The notes under the pieces were generated by a model. That model saw nothing but the letters and a program-made list of their open reading frames with translations. It was not told the origin of the DNA and searched no databases. Source: Maritimibacter sp. (GTDB lineage: Bacteria; Pseudomonadota; Alphaproteobacteria; Rhodobacterales; Rhodobacteraceae). Taken from it: a DNA stretch of 64,000 nucleotides. The DNA lies in NCBI GenBank assembly GCA_011389895.1, contig JAABTN010000001.1, forward strand, positions 1-64,000, written 5' to 3'. The position numbers and the translations under genes are program-made. Numbering within the stretch: position 1 is the first letter of the stretch; each line of letters opens with the position of its first letter. Shown here in pieces: positions 4,923 through 11,384 of this stretch.

Positions 4923-5594
4923 TCACCCGCGCCAAGAAACCCAGTCTTCCAAAGGCGCACGTTCGGTGCGAAAGCCGTTGGCGGGATGGTCTGGGTCGCG
5001 GTAGCCAAAAGAGATCACGCAGAGCGCAAGGCGGTCGTCGCCAAGCCCGAACCAGTCGTGCAGGAAGGGCGCGAAGGCGGCGGGCGCGGCTTGGGCGATG
5101 GTGGCGATGCCGCGTGCCTGGGCGGCAAGGGTGAAGGCGGTGATGAACCCGCCGGTGTCGAGCGCGCCGTAAGCGCCCAGCTCGCGCCCCGAGGTGACCA
5201 TCGCCACATGAGGGGCGCCGAAGAACGTGTAGTTCTTCATCATCTCGCGCGCCGATCCGGCTCGGTCGCCTTTCTCAACCCCCATGGCGTCGTAAAGCTG
5301 CCAGCCACAGACGCGCCGCCGCTCCCGGTGTTCGCCGCTGTAACCTTCGGGAAACGGCAGGTCGGGGGCAGGTCGCCCGTGCGTCACCGCCTCCATCAAC
5401 CCGTCGCGCAGCGCATCGGTTTCAGCACCCGAGGTGATCGAAACCTGCCACGGCTGGGCATTGCACCAGCTTGGAACGCGCTGGGCTGCCCCCAACACGG
5501 CCTCGATGTCGGCGCGCGGCACCTGATCCGGCTTGAACCCCCGGCAGGAATGGCGGGCTTTGAGAATGGCGTGAAATATGTCGAAATCGCTCAT
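4923..5594 (-). CDS. Nitroreductase family protein
   Basis: 223 aa from the ATG at 5594, which has a GGGAGA site. The frame is open much further upstream, but that part is the shadow of the zinc-ribbon gene. It begins with ILKARHSCRGFKPDQVP, the R-S-x-R-x-F FMN-phosphate motif of nitroreductases, then VPSWCNAQPWQV and near the C-terminus LALCVISFGYRD. These are FMN-dependent NAD(P)H oxidoreductases acting on nitroaromatics, quinones or other acceptors. It lies 44 nt downstream of the stress-type cluster and may share its transcript. Confidence 0.88.
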   Translation of the reverse strand: MSDFDIFHAILKARHSCRGFKPDQVPRADIEAVLGAAQRVPSWCNAQPWQVSITSGAETDALRDGLMEAVTHGRPAPDLPFPEGYSGEHRERRRVCGWQLYDAMGVEKGDRAGSAREMMKNYTFFGAPHVAMVTSGRELGAYGALDTGGFITAFTLAAQARGIATIAQAAPAAFAPFLHDWFGLGDDRLALCVISFGYRDPDHPANGFRTERAPLEDWVSWRG

Positions 5595-5638: not shown

Positions 5639-6760
5639 CTATTGTGATTGGCTGACGATGAAGCCGATGCCTGCCGCGAGGATCAGGCCCAAAATGACCG
5701 CAATGGTGATCTTGATCCACGACCAGGGCCGCTCGCCCTGCACCTTGCCCGACCGACCGTTCACGACGAATCGGTATGTCTCGCCCCGATACTTGTAGGC
5801 GGCAAGCCAGACCGGCAACAGGATATGCTTGAACGTCACGTCGGCGACCGCGGTGTCCACGTTGTGCACGCGCTGACGATCCCCGCCGATGTCGAATTTC
5901 ACATCGCGCAAGATCACCTGATCCATGTGTCGCCGCGCCTCGGTATATCCATCGGGGAGCTCGACCGTGTAGCCTTCCGCCCGGAACCCGGCGAGGTATT
6001 CGGGCCGGTAGGGTTCGAGTGCTGCAAGATCCCATGGTGCGAGGTTGTCTGTGAAGCGTTTGGGAAGCGACCGGGACGCCAGCACCAGCACGTCGTCGAA
6101 GAACCGCGCGACCCGGCCCGATTTGGGGCGCCAGCGCACGCGCTGTTCGCGCACCTGCACCCGTTTTCCATCGCGCATCACCGTCTTGGTCACGTAGTAA
6201 ACCGTGCCGCGTTCGCCCCGGTAGCTTGATTTTGTGTCGGCGTCGAAGGTCCAGTAGGGGACGTAGATCCCCGACATCTTGCGCCCTTTGCGGGCGTATT
6301 TCTGCAACCCGTTGGGAGCGAACCAGAGCCGCCCCAGCCATGCGTTCATCGCGTCATGCGCGTCGCGTTCCTGCACCGCGAAGGGCAGCAGCCCCTTGGG
6401 CTTGATATGCCGGTGCGTGCCGGTGTCCGTCACCACGGGCGAGGCGCAAAAGGGGCATTCGGCGGCATGGGTGTCGGCGTCGAATTCCACCTGCGCGCCG
6501 CAGTTCGGGCAGGACAGGACGCGGGTTTCCTCGATCTCGGCATCGGGCAGTTGCGCGTCGAGTGCTGCGCGAAAATCGAGCTCGCGAATGGCCGTCACGG
6601 CTCCGCCATGCCCTTCGATGGTGACGACATGGCCGCAATGATCGCATTTCAAATCGCCCGCGACCGCGTCGAACCGAAGGTCGGCCCCGCATTGATCGCA
6701 GGGAAAGCGGTGTTCTTCTTCGGGGGCGGTCACGTCGAAGGGGTTGGCATCATCCTGCAT
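5639..6760 (-). CDS. Zinc-ribbon membrane protein (YdjG-like)
   Basis: 373 aa. Two zinc ribbons lie at the N-terminus: CDQCGADLRF...CDHCG (about residues 20-42) and CPNCGAQVEF...CPFCASP (about 84-107). A middle domain has GIYVPYWTFDADTKSSYRGERG and later LLPVWLAAYKYRGETYRFVVNG, the recurring 'P.W......Y' pattern of this family, often mis-annotated as primosomal helicase. One C-terminal transmembrane helix (about 350-369) ends the protein. From memory, Bacillus YdjG has the same layout and works with the SPFH protein YdjI; here an SPFH-GYF gene sits two genes upstream. Its start overlaps the NTF2-like gene by 11 nt. Confidence 0.82.
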   Translation of the reverse strand: MQDDANPFDVTAPEEEHRFPCDQCGADLRFDAVAGDLKCDHCGHVVTIEGHGGAVTAIRELDFRAALDAQLPDAEIEETRVLSCPNCGAQVEFDADTHAAECPFCASPVVTDTGTHRHIKPKGLLPFAVQERDAHDAMNAWLGRLWFAPNGLQKYARKGRKMSGIYVPYWTFDADTKSSYRGERGTVYYVTKTVMRDGKRVQVREQRVRWRPKSGRVARFFDDVLVLASRSLPKRFTDNLAPWDLAALEPYRPEYLAGFRAEGYTVELPDGYTEARRHMDQVILRDVKFDIGGDRQRVHNVDTAVADVTFKHILLPVWLAAYKYRGETYRFVVNGRSGKVQGERPWSWIKITIAVILGLILAAGIGFIVSQSQ

Positions 6761-7106
6761 GTTCGAAACTCACGAGTTGCGCGATCTGCTTTGCATTGGC
6801 GGTGGTGAACCGGATCACGTGACAGAACAACCGCGCCTCGCCGCCCCGCACCAGACGGCCAGAGACCGACCCCGCCTTGCCATGGGTCACCACCTGCTCG
6901 ACCTCGACCCGGTCGAGCCCGGTTTCCACGGCGGCCAAGATCTCGGCCCGCCCGGTCACCGCCCGGTCAGGGCGCTGCCATGTCGCGGCTTCGGCCAACA
7001 GATGCTTTGGCAACGCGCCGACACCCATCAGCGCCAAGGCGATCTCTTGTGCCATGGCGTCTTTCGGGCTGTCGGCGCCGTGGTTGGACGCAAAGACGCG
7101 GGTCAT
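6750..7106 (-). CDS. Small NTF2-like (SnoaL-type) protein, function unknown
   Basis: 118 aa. No catalytic motif is evident. The pattern TGRAEILAAVE, then VVTHGKAGSVSGRL and FCHVIRFTTANAKQIAQLVSFE resembles the alternating strands of NTF2-like cone-shaped domains that form dimers and bind small ligands. The ATG is 1 nt after the SPFH gene stop and the end overlaps the zinc-ribbon gene by 11 nt, so it is a fixed member of the cluster. The fold is my inference; the operon position is seen directly. Confidence 0.7.
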   Translation of the reverse strand: MTRVFASNHGADSPKDAMAQEIALALMGVGALPKHLLAEAATWQRPDRAVTGRAEILAAVETGLDRVEVEQVVTHGKAGSVSGRLVRGGEARLFCHVIRFTTANAKQIAQLVSFEHAG

Positions 7107-7107
7107 G

Positions 7108-8226
7108 TCATCCCGCAGGGGGCGGCGGCGGCATCACGGTGAAGAGGGTGGCAAGCTCGGTCACATCCTCGGCAGGCAGCCATCCGTCCTGACCCGCTGT
7201 CCACACGAGGGTTTCACGCGTCACATCACCAGATGCCGCCTTTTGCCCCATGGTGGCGCGGGAAAACGGCCCCATCGTCTCGCCGGCCTTCGCGATATGC
7301 CAGACCTTCTCGGTGGGCGGCGGTGGCGGCGGGGCGGCCACGGGGGCCTGTTGCGCGGTGGGGGCAGCGCCCCAAGGCCCGCTTTGCCCCCCCATGTTGC
7401 CGCCCATGGCCATGCCAAGCCCCATGCCCATGGCCGCGCCCATGCCTTCGGATGCGGCCCCGCCCTTGGACAACGCCTCGGCGGCGGACCATTTCATGTG
7501 TTCATCGAGATTTCCTGCAAGCCCGCGCGAGGTGCGCTTGTCCAGCGCCTCTTCCACGGCCGGGGGGAGCGAGATGTTCTCGATATAGAATTCCGGGATC
7601 GCCAGGCCGTAGTCGGCGATGATCTTCGAGATTTCCTTGGCCACCATCTGCCCGAGTTCCATCGTGTTGGCGGCCATGTCGAGCACCGGGATACCGGACC
7701 CGGCAATCACCCGCGAGAAGCTTTGCACGATGATGTTGCGGATCTGGAAGCTGACCTCGTCCATTGTGAACTCGCCGTCGGTGCCGACGATTTCGACCAG
7801 GAATTTCGACGGGTCGGACACCCGCACCGAATAGGTGCCGAAGGCCCGCAGGCGCACGGGGCCGAATTCGGGATCGCGGCACATGATCGGGTTCTTGGTG
7901 CCCCATTTGAGGTCGGTGAACCGCGTCGTGTTGATGTAGTAGATTTCCGATTTGAAGGGCGATTTGAACCCGTGATCCCAATGCTGGAGCGTGGTCAGGA
8001 TCGGCATGTTGTTGGTTTCCAACATGTAGAGCCCCGGTGTGAACACATCCGCCAGCTGGCCTTCGTGCACAAACACCGCCGCCTGACCTTCGCGCACGGT
8101 AAGCTTGGCACCGTATTTGATCTCATGCCCCTCGCGCTCAAACCGCCAGACCATGGTGTCACGGGTGTTGTCGGTCCAGTGGATGACGTCGATGAATTGG
8201 CCGGAAAGGAAATCGAGTATGCCCAT
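7108..8226 (-). CDS. SPFH (band 7) protein with C-terminal GYF_2 domain (YdjI-like)
   Basis: 372 aa. Residues about 30-240 form an SPFH/virion-core-like domain (LTVREGQAAVFVHEGQLADV, then YYINTTRFTDLKWGTKNPI, a hallmark of this subfamily, and VSFQIRNIIVQSF). A Met/Gly-rich linker (about 265-285) and a proline run (about 300-310) lead to a GYF_2 domain at about 312-362 (VWHIAKAGETMGPFSRATM, DGWLPAEDV). SPFH proteins build membrane scaffolds; GYF_2 domains are thought to bind proline-rich peptides, so self-binding is conceivable. It sits 9 nt after the DUF2927 gene. The Bacillus counterpart YdjI is linked to PspA-type membrane stress; no PspA gene is in this window. Confidence 0.88.
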   Translation of the reverse strand: MGILDFLSGQFIDVIHWTDNTRDTMVWRFEREGHEIKYGAKLTVREGQAAVFVHEGQLADVFTPGLYMLETNNMPILTTLQHWDHGFKSPFKSEIYYINTTRFTDLKWGTKNPIMCRDPEFGPVRLRAFGTYSVRVSDPSKFLVEIVGTDGEFTMDEVSFQIRNIIVQSFSRVIAGSGIPVLDMAANTMELGQMVAKEISKIIADYGLAIPEFYIENISLPPAVEEALDKRTSRGLAGNLDEHMKWSAAEALSKGGAASEGMGAAMGMGLGMAMGGNMGGQSGPWGAAPTAQQAPVAAPPPPPPTEKVWHIAKAGETMGPFSRATMGQKAASGDVTRETLVWTAGQDGWLPAEDVTELATLFTVMPPPPPAG

Positions 8227-8235
8227 TGTGGTCCC

Positions 8236-9177
8236 CTATGTTGAGCCGGCCAGAAGCTCGGCGGCAATCTTCTCCACGACCGGGCGTGCCTCGGCCTCGG
8301 ACATGCCGGGGCGCAGGCGACGGTCATAGAGTATTTTCAAAAGTATCTCGTCATGCGTGGTGAGAAAGCCGAATTCCTCGTCGTCGTTGAAGATCGAGGG
8401 GCGCGCGAGGGGGTAGTCGTTCGACAGCCCCATGCCCTGCGCGATCTCTTCGTGAAGGCAGGAGGCGCGCAGGAGATCGGGGTGTTCCGCCCGGATCACC
8501 GCGACGGCCTGATCATAAGTGCCATTTTGTTCCGGATCGGTGGCGAAGGCGAGGCAATAGGTCGATTGCGGCAGGTCGATCACGGTATCGAGCGCGACGC
8601 GCGAAATGTTCGGGATCAATTGCTTGAGCCGGGGGGCAAGCGCGCGGCGTTCGCCTTCGCTCACGACAAAGACGTGAAAATTGCCGTTTGCGCCGACCGA
8701 GACCGGGTGGCCGGAGACGCGCTCCAGCCGGTTGGCGAACTTGACCAGCTCGTTCCTGTCACGCGCGCTTTTCGCGGCCGAAAGCGATGGGCCGGTTTCC
8801 AACGTCAGGCGCACAGGTTTTTCCCAGCGGTGAAGCTGCGATGCCTTTTCGCGGGCCACCAATCGCCCACCCACCTCGGTATACTCTTCATAAAACGCGA
8901 TCCGCATGAAATTGCGCACCACGTCGCGTTGGGTAAAGGGCGCATCCGCCCCGCCACGATCGGTGCGCAAGAGCCCCTGCGCAACCAGACCGTTTTGCAG
9001 GCGGCTGTAATAGCTGACCAGCTCGGGCGACAGGCCCCCGGCCTCGGGAACAGCCATCGCTGCCGGGCGCTCTGCCGGGGCGGGGGCCGTTGAGACCGCC
9101 CCTGTGTTCGGCATGTCGCATCCGGCCAGCAGCGCGGCCATGGTCAAGCTCGCCAATCCCGCCTGCCAATGCCTCAC
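8236..9177 (-). CDS. DUF2927 lipoprotein, zincin-like
   Basis: 313 aa from a GTG at 9177 that overlaps the telA stop by 4 nt (GTGA). The start yields a clean lipoprotein signal, VRHWQAGLASLTMAALLAGC, with the lipobox LLAGC ending at about residue 20. The open frame extends upstream to 9546, but that part is the telA shadow. A DUF2927 domain occupies about 95-290, with RWEKPVRL and CLHEEIAQGMGLSND. The HEE...Q motif with a following glycine-leucine resembles a degenerate metallopeptidase helix (not canonical HExxH). It is probably anchored in the outer or inner membrane facing the periplasm. Proteolytic activity is not established. Confidence 0.8.
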   Translation of the reverse strand: MRHWQAGLASLTMAALLAGCDMPNTGAVSTAPAPAERPAAMAVPEAGGLSPELVSYYSRLQNGLVAQGLLRTDRGGADAPFTQRDVVRNFMRIAFYEEYTEVGGRLVAREKASQLHRWEKPVRLTLETGPSLSAAKSARDRNELVKFANRLERVSGHPVSVGANGNFHVFVVSEGERRALAPRLKQLIPNISRVALDTVIDLPQSTYCLAFATDPEQNGTYDQAVAVIRAEHPDLLRASCLHEEIAQGMGLSNDYPLARPSIFNDDEEFGFLTTHDEILLKILYDRRLRPGMSEAEARPVVEKIAAELLAGST

Positions 9178-10367
9178 TTGGGAACGGACCCCCCGACCTC
9201 GTGACCGTCGGCGGTGCCGCGTGCCTTTGCAGAGGCCAGCGTCGTCTTGAGCTCGCTCTCCATCTTGGTGAGTTCCTCTTCGGCAGCGGCGCGTTTCGCC
9301 TTGCCCTCGTCCGCGATCTGAAGGCTTTCCTCGATCGTCGCGATGAGATCCTGGTTGGCCGATTTGATCGCCTCGATGTCGAAGACGCCCCGCTCCATTT
9401 CCTGGCGCACCATCTTGTTGGCTTCGCGCAGGTTGGCGGCGTTCGATGTCAAAAGCTCGTTGGTGAGGTCGTTGGCGTCCTTGACCGCAGCCGCGGCCTC
9501 GGCCGAGCGCTGGATCGTCACCGCCTGCGCCAGCTGGGTTTCCCAAAGCGGCACGGTGTTGACCAGCGTCGAGTTGATCTTTGTCACCAGCGACTTGTCG
9601 TTTTCCTGAACCAGCCGGATCGAGGGCAGCGATTGCATGGTGACCTGTCGCGTGAGTTTCAGATCATGCACGCGGCGCTCAAGATCATCGCGCGCGGCGC
9701 GCAGGTCGCGCAGCTCCTGCGCCTGGATGACGCCTTGGTCGTCCGGCGCGCCCTCGACCTCTTTCTCCTTGGCCGGGATCGTCTCGTCGTCCAGCTCTTT
9801 CAGCTTGGCCTCGCCCGCCGAAATATAGAGCGCGAGCTCGTCATAAAACTCCAGCGTCTTGTCATAAAGCACGTCGAGCGACTTGATATCCTTGAGCAGC
9901 GTGTGTTCGTGCATCAGGAGGTTGTCGGTGATCTTGTCGATCTGGCCCTGCACGTCTTCATAGCGTGCCGCGAATTTCGCCGCCGGTGCCGCCCGCCCCA
10001 AAAGCCGTTCCCAGAACGTGCGCTGACGGCGCATGTCAAGCTCGCTGACCGAAAAGCCGCGTATCGCCGTGACGATGGTGCGCAGGCTGTCGCCCGCCGG
10101 GCCCACATCCTTGTTGCGCACGCCCGAGAGCATCTCCTGGCTGATCACCTGAAGCTCGGATTGCGCCGAGGAGCCGAAGCCGATGATCGACTGGCTGTCG
10201 GCCATGTCGATCTCGGCCATCCGTTTGCGGATCGCGGCCCCTTGGGTCTTGTTTGCCTTCTCCAGCGGCACGAGCGCGGTGGAGGGTTCTTTCAATACCA
10301 CCGCCGAAAGATTTTCGACCTCCTTGGTCTGGGTCTCGGCGTCCTTGAATGTCTCGTCGTCCATCAT
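9174..10367 (-). CDS. telA: Toxic anion resistance (TelA/YaaN) family protein
   Basis: 397 aa, soluble, almost wholly helical with predicted coiled coils. Family hallmarks include IIGFGSSAQSELQVISQEML near residues 61-80 and, around residues 240-280, LTRQVTMQSLPSIRLVQEND followed by INSTLVNTVPLWETQLAQA. TelA proteins were named for tellurite tolerance, but their biochemical role is unsettled. Two adjacent ATGs (10367 and 10364) follow AAGGACAGGGACAG. The gene is 12 nt downstream of xpaC, the same pair as xpaC-yaaN in Bacillus. Its stop overlaps the DUF2927 gene start. Confidence 0.92.
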   Translation of the reverse strand: MMDDETFKDAETQTKEVENLSAVVLKEPSTALVPLEKANKTQGAAIRKRMAEIDMADSQSIIGFGSSAQSELQVISQEMLSGVRNKDVGPAGDSLRTIVTAIRGFSVSELDMRRQRTFWERLLGRAAPAAKFAARYEDVQGQIDKITDNLLMHEHTLLKDIKSLDVLYDKTLEFYDELALYISAGEAKLKELDDETIPAKEKEVEGAPDDQGVIQAQELRDLRAARDDLERRVHDLKLTRQVTMQSLPSIRLVQENDKSLVTKINSTLVNTVPLWETQLAQAVTIQRSAEAAAAVKDANDLTNELLTSNAANLREANKMVRQEMERGVFDIEAIKSANQDLIATIEESLQIADEGKAKRAAAEEELTKMESELKTTLASAKARGTADGHEVGGSVPK

Positions 10368-10379
10368 CTGTCCCTGTCC

Positions 10380-11267
10380 TTATTTTGCGACCACGCCTTC
10401 GCGGGCCAAGCGGTCCCGAAGCACCTCGATCTCGATGTTGAGATCGCCTTGGTCCTCGGTAAGCATCTTTTGTGTCCGTGCCGTGAAATTCGTTTCGAGA
10501 TCGTCGAGAAGCGCGATGTAATCGGCGCGCGCGCCGGCATCGCGCGAATGGCTGTAGACATCGGCGAACTTGGCCGTCGCGTCCCGTGCCCCCATCAGGT
10601 AGACGGTCAGATACTTGCGCGCGCCGGTCAGGTCGCGGGGGTCGTTCTCGATGGTGCGGAACATGTGGCGCGCGGTGGCCTGAAAGCTGTCCACCCGGCG
10701 CTCAAGCTCGCGGTCCTTGGCGCGTATGATCGCGTCCTTCATGGCGGCAAGGAGCTTCTCGGCCTCGCCCACGGCGCGCGCCACCCGGTCGGTCTGAAAC
10801 GCGTCGACCCCCTCCATGCCCTTGTTTCTGAGCGGGTCGGGGCCAAAGGCAAAGCCATGGAGCACGGCCCCCAGTACGCCGAAGATCGCGGCATTGGCAA
10901 ACCCGCCCCCGACATAACCCGCAAGCGCGAGGCCCGCGCCGGTCAAGAGGGATCCAAGGATTTTTCGTGGCAGCGTCGGGCGACGTGCAATCTTGCGCGC
11001 ATCATAGGCTTCATGGGCCATCACGCCCTCGCGCGTCAACCAAGCGGCAAGGATCAGAAGGCCAAACGCGGCAAGCCGCATGGCTAGCCCTGAGGCATCC
11101 AGAAAGAAGGCCGACACCGCCAACGGCAGCGGGGCGAGGAACAGGAAATTCACCCGGCCACCGGCGCGCGCAGGGTTTTTACCGTCAAACGGGTTCTTGG
11201 GGGGCGTGCCCTGCGAAGACCCGCCCCCATCGGGGCTGAATTTCCCGCCGTATCGTTGCGACATCAT
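10380..11267 (-). CDS. XpaC-family membrane protein
   Basis: 295 aa from the ATG at 11267, which overlaps the stop of a 27-codon upstream ORF (ATGA); the next ATG (11264) has better spacing from GGGAGG and cannot be excluded. A Gly/Pro-rich cytoplasmic N-terminus is followed by about four hydrophobic segments (about 40-90 and 115-150). A soluble helical C-terminal domain contains ARKYLTVYLMGARDATAKFA, matching the XpaC pattern of a helix bearing 'RkfL.yYlp....l...Y'. XpaC was named from BCIP hydrolysis in Bacillus, but its real role is unknown. Its partner TelA follows at 12 nt. Confidence 0.82.
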   Translation of the reverse strand: MMSQRYGGKFSPDGGGSSQGTPPKNPFDGKNPARAGGRVNFLFLAPLPLAVSAFFLDASGLAMRLAAFGLLILAAWLTREGVMAHEAYDARKIARRPTLPRKILGSLLTGAGLALAGYVGGGFANAAIFGVLGAVLHGFAFGPDPLRNKGMEGVDAFQTDRVARAVGEAEKLLAAMKDAIIRAKDRELERRVDSFQATARHMFRTIENDPRDLTGARKYLTVYLMGARDATAKFADVYSHSRDAGARADYIALLDDLETNFTARTQKMLTEDQGDLNIEIEVLRDRLAREGVVAK

Positions 11268-11347
11268 CCGCCTCCCGTAACGGCGACGTAAAGGATCAAC
11301 GCCAACAGGAGAAAATAAGACAGTTTTTGCAAGCCGGAACCGGACAC
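11264..11347 (-). CDS. 27-aa single-pass membrane microprotein leading the xpaC-telA cluster
   Basis: Reading the minus strand from GTG at 11347 gives 27 codons and TGA at 11266-11264: Met/Val-Ser-Gly-Ser-Gly-Leu-Gln-Lys-Leu, then a hydrophobic stretch SYFLLLALILYVAVTGGG. The stretch of about 15-17 uncharged residues could span a membrane. An AAGGGG site lies 5 nt before the GTG. The TGA overlaps the first ATG of xpaC in an ATGA junction, the same coupling used elsewhere in this cluster. I know no named family for it. It may instead be a leader peptide that only couples translation to xpaC. Confidence 0.55.
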   Translation of the reverse strand: MSGSGLQKLSYFLLLALILYVAVTGGG

Positions 11348-11384
11348 AGGCACCCCTTACCCGAAAATTCACTGGTTGATGACA

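Follow-up and report, generated by a model that had tools for sequence, protein, structure and literature searches.

A conserved Rhodobacteraceae operon joins XpaC-TelA to an SPFH-GYF/zinc-ribbon pair and may serve in PspA-independent protection of the inner membrane

The XpaC-TelA and YdjI-type SPFH systems are both widespread and both poorly understood. In the xpaC-telA (yaaN) operon of Bacillota the XpaC and TelA genes adjoin (for example lmo1966-lmo1967 and llmg_1115-1116, according to the portions of the reports available), and those portions name no SPFH, zinc-ribbon or DUF2927 gene alongside the pair. The accessible part of one of these describes a Listeria mutant in the TelA-type gene lmo1967 that is more sensitive to nisin (4-fold) and to tellurite (2-fold), with both genes of the pair rising modestly in the presence of bacteriocin (PMC12791056). 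An XpaC-like gene and telA1 stand in a table of genes raised during membrane-protein overproduction in Lactococcus (PMC3139573, available in part), and in PMC6955997 (likewise in part) the telA gene of Rhodobacter sphaeroides appears among the determinants of tellurite resistance. For the second system, the available text of PMC8581546 has YdjI of Bacillus linking PspA to the membrane together with YdjG and YdjH; the foci of YdjI and PspA vanish when YdjG or YdjH is missing. Here we describe an operon of Maritimibacter sp. in which the two systems are combined. It lies at positions 5639-11347 of the window, by which we mean the whole stretch of 64,000 nucleotides that was analysed (contig JAABTN010000001.1, positions 1 to 64,000). 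Both systems occur as one operon in most of the Rhodobacteraceae sampled, two thirds of which have no PspA match, so that a joint function becomes directly testable, and a conserved microprotein gene is added to them. Our tentative reading, held at a little under even confidence, is that the locus is the version, found in Rhodobacteraceae, of an operon that protects the inner membrane independently of PspA. No paper pairing 'toxic anion resistance' with SPFH was found in the literature searched, which left subscription papers mostly outside, and a single paper there mentions TelA, XpaC and an operon together.

The operon comprises seven minus-strand genes, whose overlaps and gaps, as given in an earlier note made from the sequence alone, were confirmed to the base. 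In the direction of transcription, a 27-codon microprotein gene with a single transmembrane segment (11264..11347) overlaps by 4 nt (ATGA) the XpaC-type gene (10380..11267), and TelA (9174..10367) follows after a gap of 12 nt. The DUF2927 lipoprotein gene (8236..9177) overlaps the end of TelA by 4 nt (GTGA) and is separated by 9 nt from the SPFH-GYF gene (7108..8226). One nucleotide further lies an NTF2/SnoaL-like gene (6750..7106), which overlaps by 11 nt the gene for a double zinc-ribbon protein with a C-terminal membrane anchor (5639..6760). The family assignments of the earlier note are borne out by Pfam matches: XpaC passes PF10112 (E 1.9e-26; 93.7 bits versus a cut-off of 29.8), TelA passes PF05816 (E 8.9e-107; 357.4 bits versus 30, positions 3-331 of 332), the lipoprotein matches PF11150 (E 4.3e-60), and the SPFH protein passes PF13421 (Band_7_1; E 3.8e-102, 340.8 bits versus 24) and ends in a PF14237 domain (GYF_2; E 4.5e-20).

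The arrangement is conserved far beyond chance. The family sample held 121 genomes from an order-level draw, all assigned to one family and spread over 59 genera, with the genome of the window itself (G000) included. Profile searches located TelA in 119 of the 121, strongly in 118, DUF2927 in 120, and Band_7_1 above its cut-off in 117. A strong TelA is present in 117 relatives, a count that leaves out the own genome, three extra regions (L149-L151) and the class-level loci; the TelA neighbourhoods of these relatives were searched with the window proteins. XpaC, TelA, DUF2927 and SPFH follow one another in the same order and on the same strand in 107 of these 117, and the zinc-ribbon gene was also seen in 93 of the 107. 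Among the 14 relatives with no zinc-ribbon match, the sequence stops at a contig edge in five (L037, L038, L067, L094 and L139), while in the remaining nine, six of them from one genus, the gene was not found within the 15-kb stretch. A second set of 80 named loci, being the best 80 TelA matches and so close kin, gave the four-gene order in 77 and the order plus zinc ribbon in 73; the three loci lacking the four-gene order sit on short contigs or at contig ends. The two sets overlap (at least L203/G026 and L231/G045), so that pooled counts contain duplicates. The neighbourhood search across relatives proposed in the earlier note has accordingly found the order kept, and the contrary case that it named, the genes lying apart in many genomes, does not hold. 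Three genomes (G011, G085, G106) have no strong TelA (two have none and G085 a weak one), no Band_7_1 above the cut-off and, in all three, no XpaC. The two modules are thus supported as one conserved genetic unit in Rhodobacteraceae; that they also work as one machine, as the earlier note proposed, would be a further, functional step, and the NTF2-like protein which it counted among the parts drops out, with homologues in 3/121 genomes.

Two side observations concern this survey. The sole TelA-like frame of G085 (L149) is distant (27% identity) and is followed at once by a nitroreductase gene, an arrangement suggestive of an eroded operon. One record labelled Enemella evansiae (Actinomycetota; L199) contains a typical Rhodobacteraceae operon, probably through contamination or mislabelling.

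Judged by comparison of genes, SPFH and zinc ribbon are a unit of their own, since related pairs stand without TelA in Vibrio, Comamonas and Tsukamurella. The pairs of Vibrio and Tsukamurella plasmids have the same order (SPFH 40-47% and zinc ribbon 32-37% identical) and, by eye, GYF-like tails on their SPFH proteins; unlike in the present operon, neither XpaC nor TelA is annotated in the surrounding 8 kb or so, in a gene table that is incomplete. The zinc-ribbon protein of the window shares 36-37% identity with the proteins whose genes follow SPFH in Vibrio and Comamonas. It has sub-threshold ribbon matches at residues 15-46 and 79-111 and a hydrophobic segment at 351-369. Within the family, a GYF-like tail pattern (a custom regular expression) is present in 187 of 192 relatives' SPFH copies.

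A similar pair is found in the pspA-ydjGHI operon of Bacillus subtilis, where an SPFH protein of the PF13421 type (the B. subtilis match was among the profile controls) is encoded beside a double zinc-ribbon transmembrane protein and, as far as the available descriptions go, is soluble and needs membrane partners. The earlier note had regarded YdjI as an SPFH-GYF protein, whereas the part available of a review (PMC11237479) gives the band-7 protein encoded in the ydj operon of Bacillus a C-terminal zinc ribbon in place of GYF, and on that description the two SPFH proteins differ in how they end. The present operon differs further in its additional XpaC, TelA, DUF2927 and microprotein genes and in having neither PspA nor a TPM protein (YdjH): the TPM family does not appear in the Pfam tables of the six larger operon proteins (for the zinc ribbon, the best 25 of 37 weak matches), a search confined to these proteins and not extended to the rest of the genome. 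PF04012 (PspA) gave no match in G000 (completeness 92%), and the same holds for 80 further genomes of the 121. The tie to PspA drawn in the earlier note was therefore abandoned, a PspA partnership being rejected for this genome, and because PspA was not found in 81/121 genomes the Bacillus YdjI-PspA pathway applies at most by analogy.

Outside the family, a class sample of 190 Alphaproteobacteria genomes contained XpaC-TelA-SPFH-zinc ribbon without DUF2927 in four genomes (G176, G183, G236 and G250), each from a different family. In a phylum sample of 249 genomes (SPFH threshold E 1e-20) no TelA-SPFH neighbours were seen outside Alphaproteobacteria; G315, G371 and G482 carry both genes on separate contigs, although those of G371 lie near contig starts, where linkage is possible. 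The TelA proteins of the Rhodobacteraceae operon (12 rows) form one supported clade (100/98), as do its SPFH proteins (11 rows; 95/99). The simplest history is that the modules were joined once in Alphaproteobacteria, with DUF2927 and the microprotein gained in the Rhodobacteraceae line. A single joining is not established by the tree, because the four outgroup loci form no clade of their own and two TelA proteins without SPFH fall among them.

XpaC has hydrophobic segments at residues 41-78 and 118-141, N-terminal to its PF10112 domain. TelA has no hydrophobic transmembrane segment, and its AlphaFold model is all-helical, with a predicted local distance difference test score (pLDDT) of 69 and a predicted template modelling score (pTM) of 0.50. 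An ESCRT-III/PspA fold for TelA is unsupported: the model is weak, and its best Z (up to 12.5) falls short of the level stated by the tool for helical bundles that are unrelated. The fold matches listed contain neither PspA nor ESCRT-III chains, which excludes nothing.

A role in PspA-independent inner-membrane protection, along the lines set out below, is suggested to us by the kept gene order (107/117; 77/80), by the absence of XpaC where strong TelA and SPFH are absent, by the DUF2927-less form of the operon in four other Alphaproteobacteria, by the single clades of TelA and SPFH, by the failure to find PspA in most genomes of the family sample, and by the reports on phenotypes and expression from Bacillus, Listeria, Lactococcus and R. 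sphaeroides. In such a mechanism, the SPFH-GYF protein, itself soluble, would be recruited to the inner membrane by the tail-anchored zinc-ribbon protein, in the way that YdjG and YdjH recruit YdjI in Bacillus. The SPFH oligomer would then scaffold the membrane-anchored XpaC and the long-helix TelA, the latter filling the effector place that PspA holds in Bacillus. A periplasmic DUF2927 pseudoprotease would bind peptides or a partner without cutting, the microprotein would tune the membrane complex, and the cell would as a result tolerate membrane-active agents and tellurite, in line with the phenotypes described for TelA in other organisms.

Several points weigh against this assignment. PspA does have a match in 40 of the 121 genomes. 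The ten exceptions among the 117 relatives comprise six genomes in which XpaC does not adjoin TelA, three with no intervening DUF2927 (which they carry elsewhere) and one without SPFH. The six are all the genomes of one genus and each encodes XpaC elsewhere; in one of them, G048, TelA-DUF2927 and SPFH-zinc ribbon are found on separate contigs. The one without SPFH, G081, keeps XpaC-TelA-DUF2927, and at one locus counted in the 107 (L044, from genome G110) 12 kb separates TelA from DUF2927. A PspA-like role for TelA is a guess, given a poor model whose fold matches do not surpass those of common helical bundles. Promoter and terminator scans of the operon gave no signal above shuffles, in a scan that covers alphaproteobacterial promoters poorly. 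The functional role as a whole is inferred.

Some of these breaks bear on a different explanation, according to which XpaC-TelA and SPFH-GYF/zinc ribbon are independent modules that share a transcript through a common stress and form no joint complex. The breaks in G048 and G110 fall between modules, SPFH-zinc ribbon stands alone in Vibrio, Comamonas and Tsukamurella, and most of the other sampled Pseudomonadota that carry TelA have it without SPFH. Independence sits poorly, however, with an order kept across a sample drawn from 59 genera, with genes that in the window overlap or lie a few bases apart, and with the absence of XpaC along with TelA and SPFH in three of three genomes, and we consider it unlikely, though not strongly so.

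Going beyond the earlier note, the analysis points to conservation of the small open reading frame (ORF) under selection and to DUF2927 having a predicted matrixin-like fold whose active site is rewritten. The 27-codon frame begins with GTG at 11347, preceded by AAGGGG at a spacing of 5 bases; an alternative GTG at 11353 would give 29 codons. With a 17-seed profile, whose seeds are counted among its matches, a homologue (E < 0.01) was detected upstream of XpaC in 183 of 194 regions, the best match always being on the coding strand, and in 181 of these the homologue terminates no more than a few bases away from the start of XpaC. The consensus, drawn by eye, is MSxxGLQKLAYxLLxxLxLYVxxTGG. Codon comparisons were made by TelA identity on 180 members, with the last five codons excluded on account of their overlap with the XpaC ribosome-binding site. 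Between relatives whose TelA proteins are 86-97% identical (55 pairs), the differences fall 32/16/52% at codon positions 1/2/3, and the median ratio of nonsynonymous to synonymous substitution rates (dN/dS) is 0.18 over 43 usable pairs, 12 of the 55 being saturated. The ratio is 0.41 at 82-86% TelA identity (16/67 saturated) and 0.51 at 78-82% (25/74 saturated), where distant pairs mix 27- and 29-residue forms in an ungapped alignment and dN is inflated; it is 0.17 when pairs are picked at 62% protein identity or above, a choice that favours low values. On this codon pattern the frame is a conserved microprotein gene under purifying selection. The same profile test did not detect it in the outgroup loci L152, L153, L155 and L156, and an NCBIfam scan of the window microprotein and two relatives' copies returned no family match.

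The DUF2927 protein has the lipobox LLAGC in the window. Its operon set contains 194 rows, 190 of them distinct, after removal of L151 from an earlier 195. Cys20 is found in each of the 191 rows covering its column, and Cys208 and Cys240 are invariant across 35 sequences. The lipobox and these invariant cysteines make an extracytoplasmic position very likely, in keeping with the periplasmic side suggested in the earlier note. A stretch CxHEExxQGLGLxND was recognised, before any fold search, as resembling a degraded HExxHxxGxxH motif. An AlphaFold2 model based on 35 sequences (pLDDT 87, pTM 0.82) was used for structural searches. With Foldseek, matrix metalloproteinases (MMPs) or MMP-like karilysin made up all 50 matches listed, the best with E 5.8e-4 and a template modelling score of 0.67 by target length and 0.37 by query length, and one match lay below E 0.001. 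VIA-align likewise listed MMPs or karilysin in all 50 places (best Z 11.7, with a root-mean-square deviation of 2.9 over 149 aligned residues). A search of PDB sequences with the DUF2927 profile found no metalloprotease and chance matches only, so that the predicted matrixin-like (metzincin) fold rests on the model together with relatives that retain HExxH.

While the predicted fold is that of the MMP catalytic domains, the active site differs. Residues 243-254 (8416..8451, minus strand) read EEIAQGMGLSND in place of the metzincin HExxHxxGxxH, and the operon copies share the pattern EExxQxxGxxND, with E243, E244, Q247 and D254 in 194/194, G250 in 193 and N253 in 192. The Met-turn methionine is absent, its aligned place being held by Phe263 in 194/194 (placed through a sequence alignment to the SIM of L276). 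Twenty DUF2927 regions were taken for a survey of distant members, of which L258, L268 and L271 yielded no frame at E 1e-3; of the 21 distant or paralogous frames, 4 have HExxH, 14 EExxQ, 2 neither, and in one the motif falls outside the frame. The HExxH-bearing members (L269, L270, L272 and L276) match PF11150 with E from 4.5e-23 to 3.9e-10, align at the rewritten motif and may be active metalloproteases. From the model and these relatives, the operon protein is probably a periplasmic matrixin-like pseudoprotease lipoprotein. DUF2927 thereby gains a functional hypothesis, that of a metzincin-fold pseudoprotease with HExxH relatives, of which the fold part is new unless Pfam already groups PF11150 with metallopeptidases. 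The literature searched, again mostly without subscription papers, contains no mention of DUF2927, and a text search of the DalA lipoprotein paper (PMC10470522) did not find it mentioned there.

Such a protein also invites a more elaborate scheme, in which the operon would be a trans-envelope, PspA-independent repair machine. The pseudo-matrixin lipoprotein would sense peptides or misfolded envelope proteins and, via XpaC and the 27-residue protein, trigger assembly of TelA on the SPFH-GYF/zinc-ribbon platform, TelA being a helical remodeller that replaces PspA. We think this improbable in its full form.

Slightly more doubtful still is that DUF2927 is a metzincin-fold hydrolase in its own right, using another metal or a metal-free site made from E243, E244, Q247, N253 and D254. 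They are conserved as strictly as an active site would be (four of them in 194/194), and EExxQ is retained in 14/21 distant or paralogous frames. Against this, the three ligand places have no histidine, and we know of no such non-histidine triad that binds catalytic zinc. Human ADAM pseudoproteases, as covered in the available part of PMC11266112, carry similar replacements, which again counts against a hydrolase. A main role of the operon in resistance to tellurite or oxyanions is very unlikely: such a role could draw on the citation of R. sphaeroides telA as a tellurite-resistance locus, but strong TelA in 118/121 genomes suggests a housekeeping role, and in the accessible part of the Listeria report the nisin effect exceeds that of tellurite. 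An anti-phage defence system was rejected as the identity of the operon, the PADLOC models giving zero families at E 0.01 against the six operon proteins scanned, the microprotein standing outside that scan.

The remaining features are variable. The NTF2-like protein matches SnoaL_2 weakly (E 0.01; 16.8 bits versus a cut-off of 27), and the only loci with its gene inside the operon are the window, L131, L178 and L189. Homologues at E 1e-5 occur in 3/121 genomes, two within the operon and one outside it with an internal stop; the gene was rejected as a core part and assigned to a variable slot between SPFH and zinc ribbon. This stretch exceeds 250 nt in 54 of 92 full-set loci, and one single-linkage cluster accounts for 34 ORFs in 32 loci. 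The sole cluster member scanned, an ORF of L130 starting at 6681 (TelA-oriented), matches cytochrome b561 (PF01292, E 1.2e-11), which suggests that the operon has a redox connection. Another variable slot, located between DUF2927 and SPFH, is longer than 250 nt in 20/92 loci, its largest cluster having 10 ORFs, one member of which is DUF4241-like; a long ORF in this slot of L109, starting at 5168 (TelA-oriented), has by eye the look of a Hint (intein-like) domain. Finally, a nitroreductase gene (4923..5594, minus strand) flanks the operon 44 nt downstream in the window, and one is found downstream in 32/80 named loci, making it a frequent neighbour and not a constant one.

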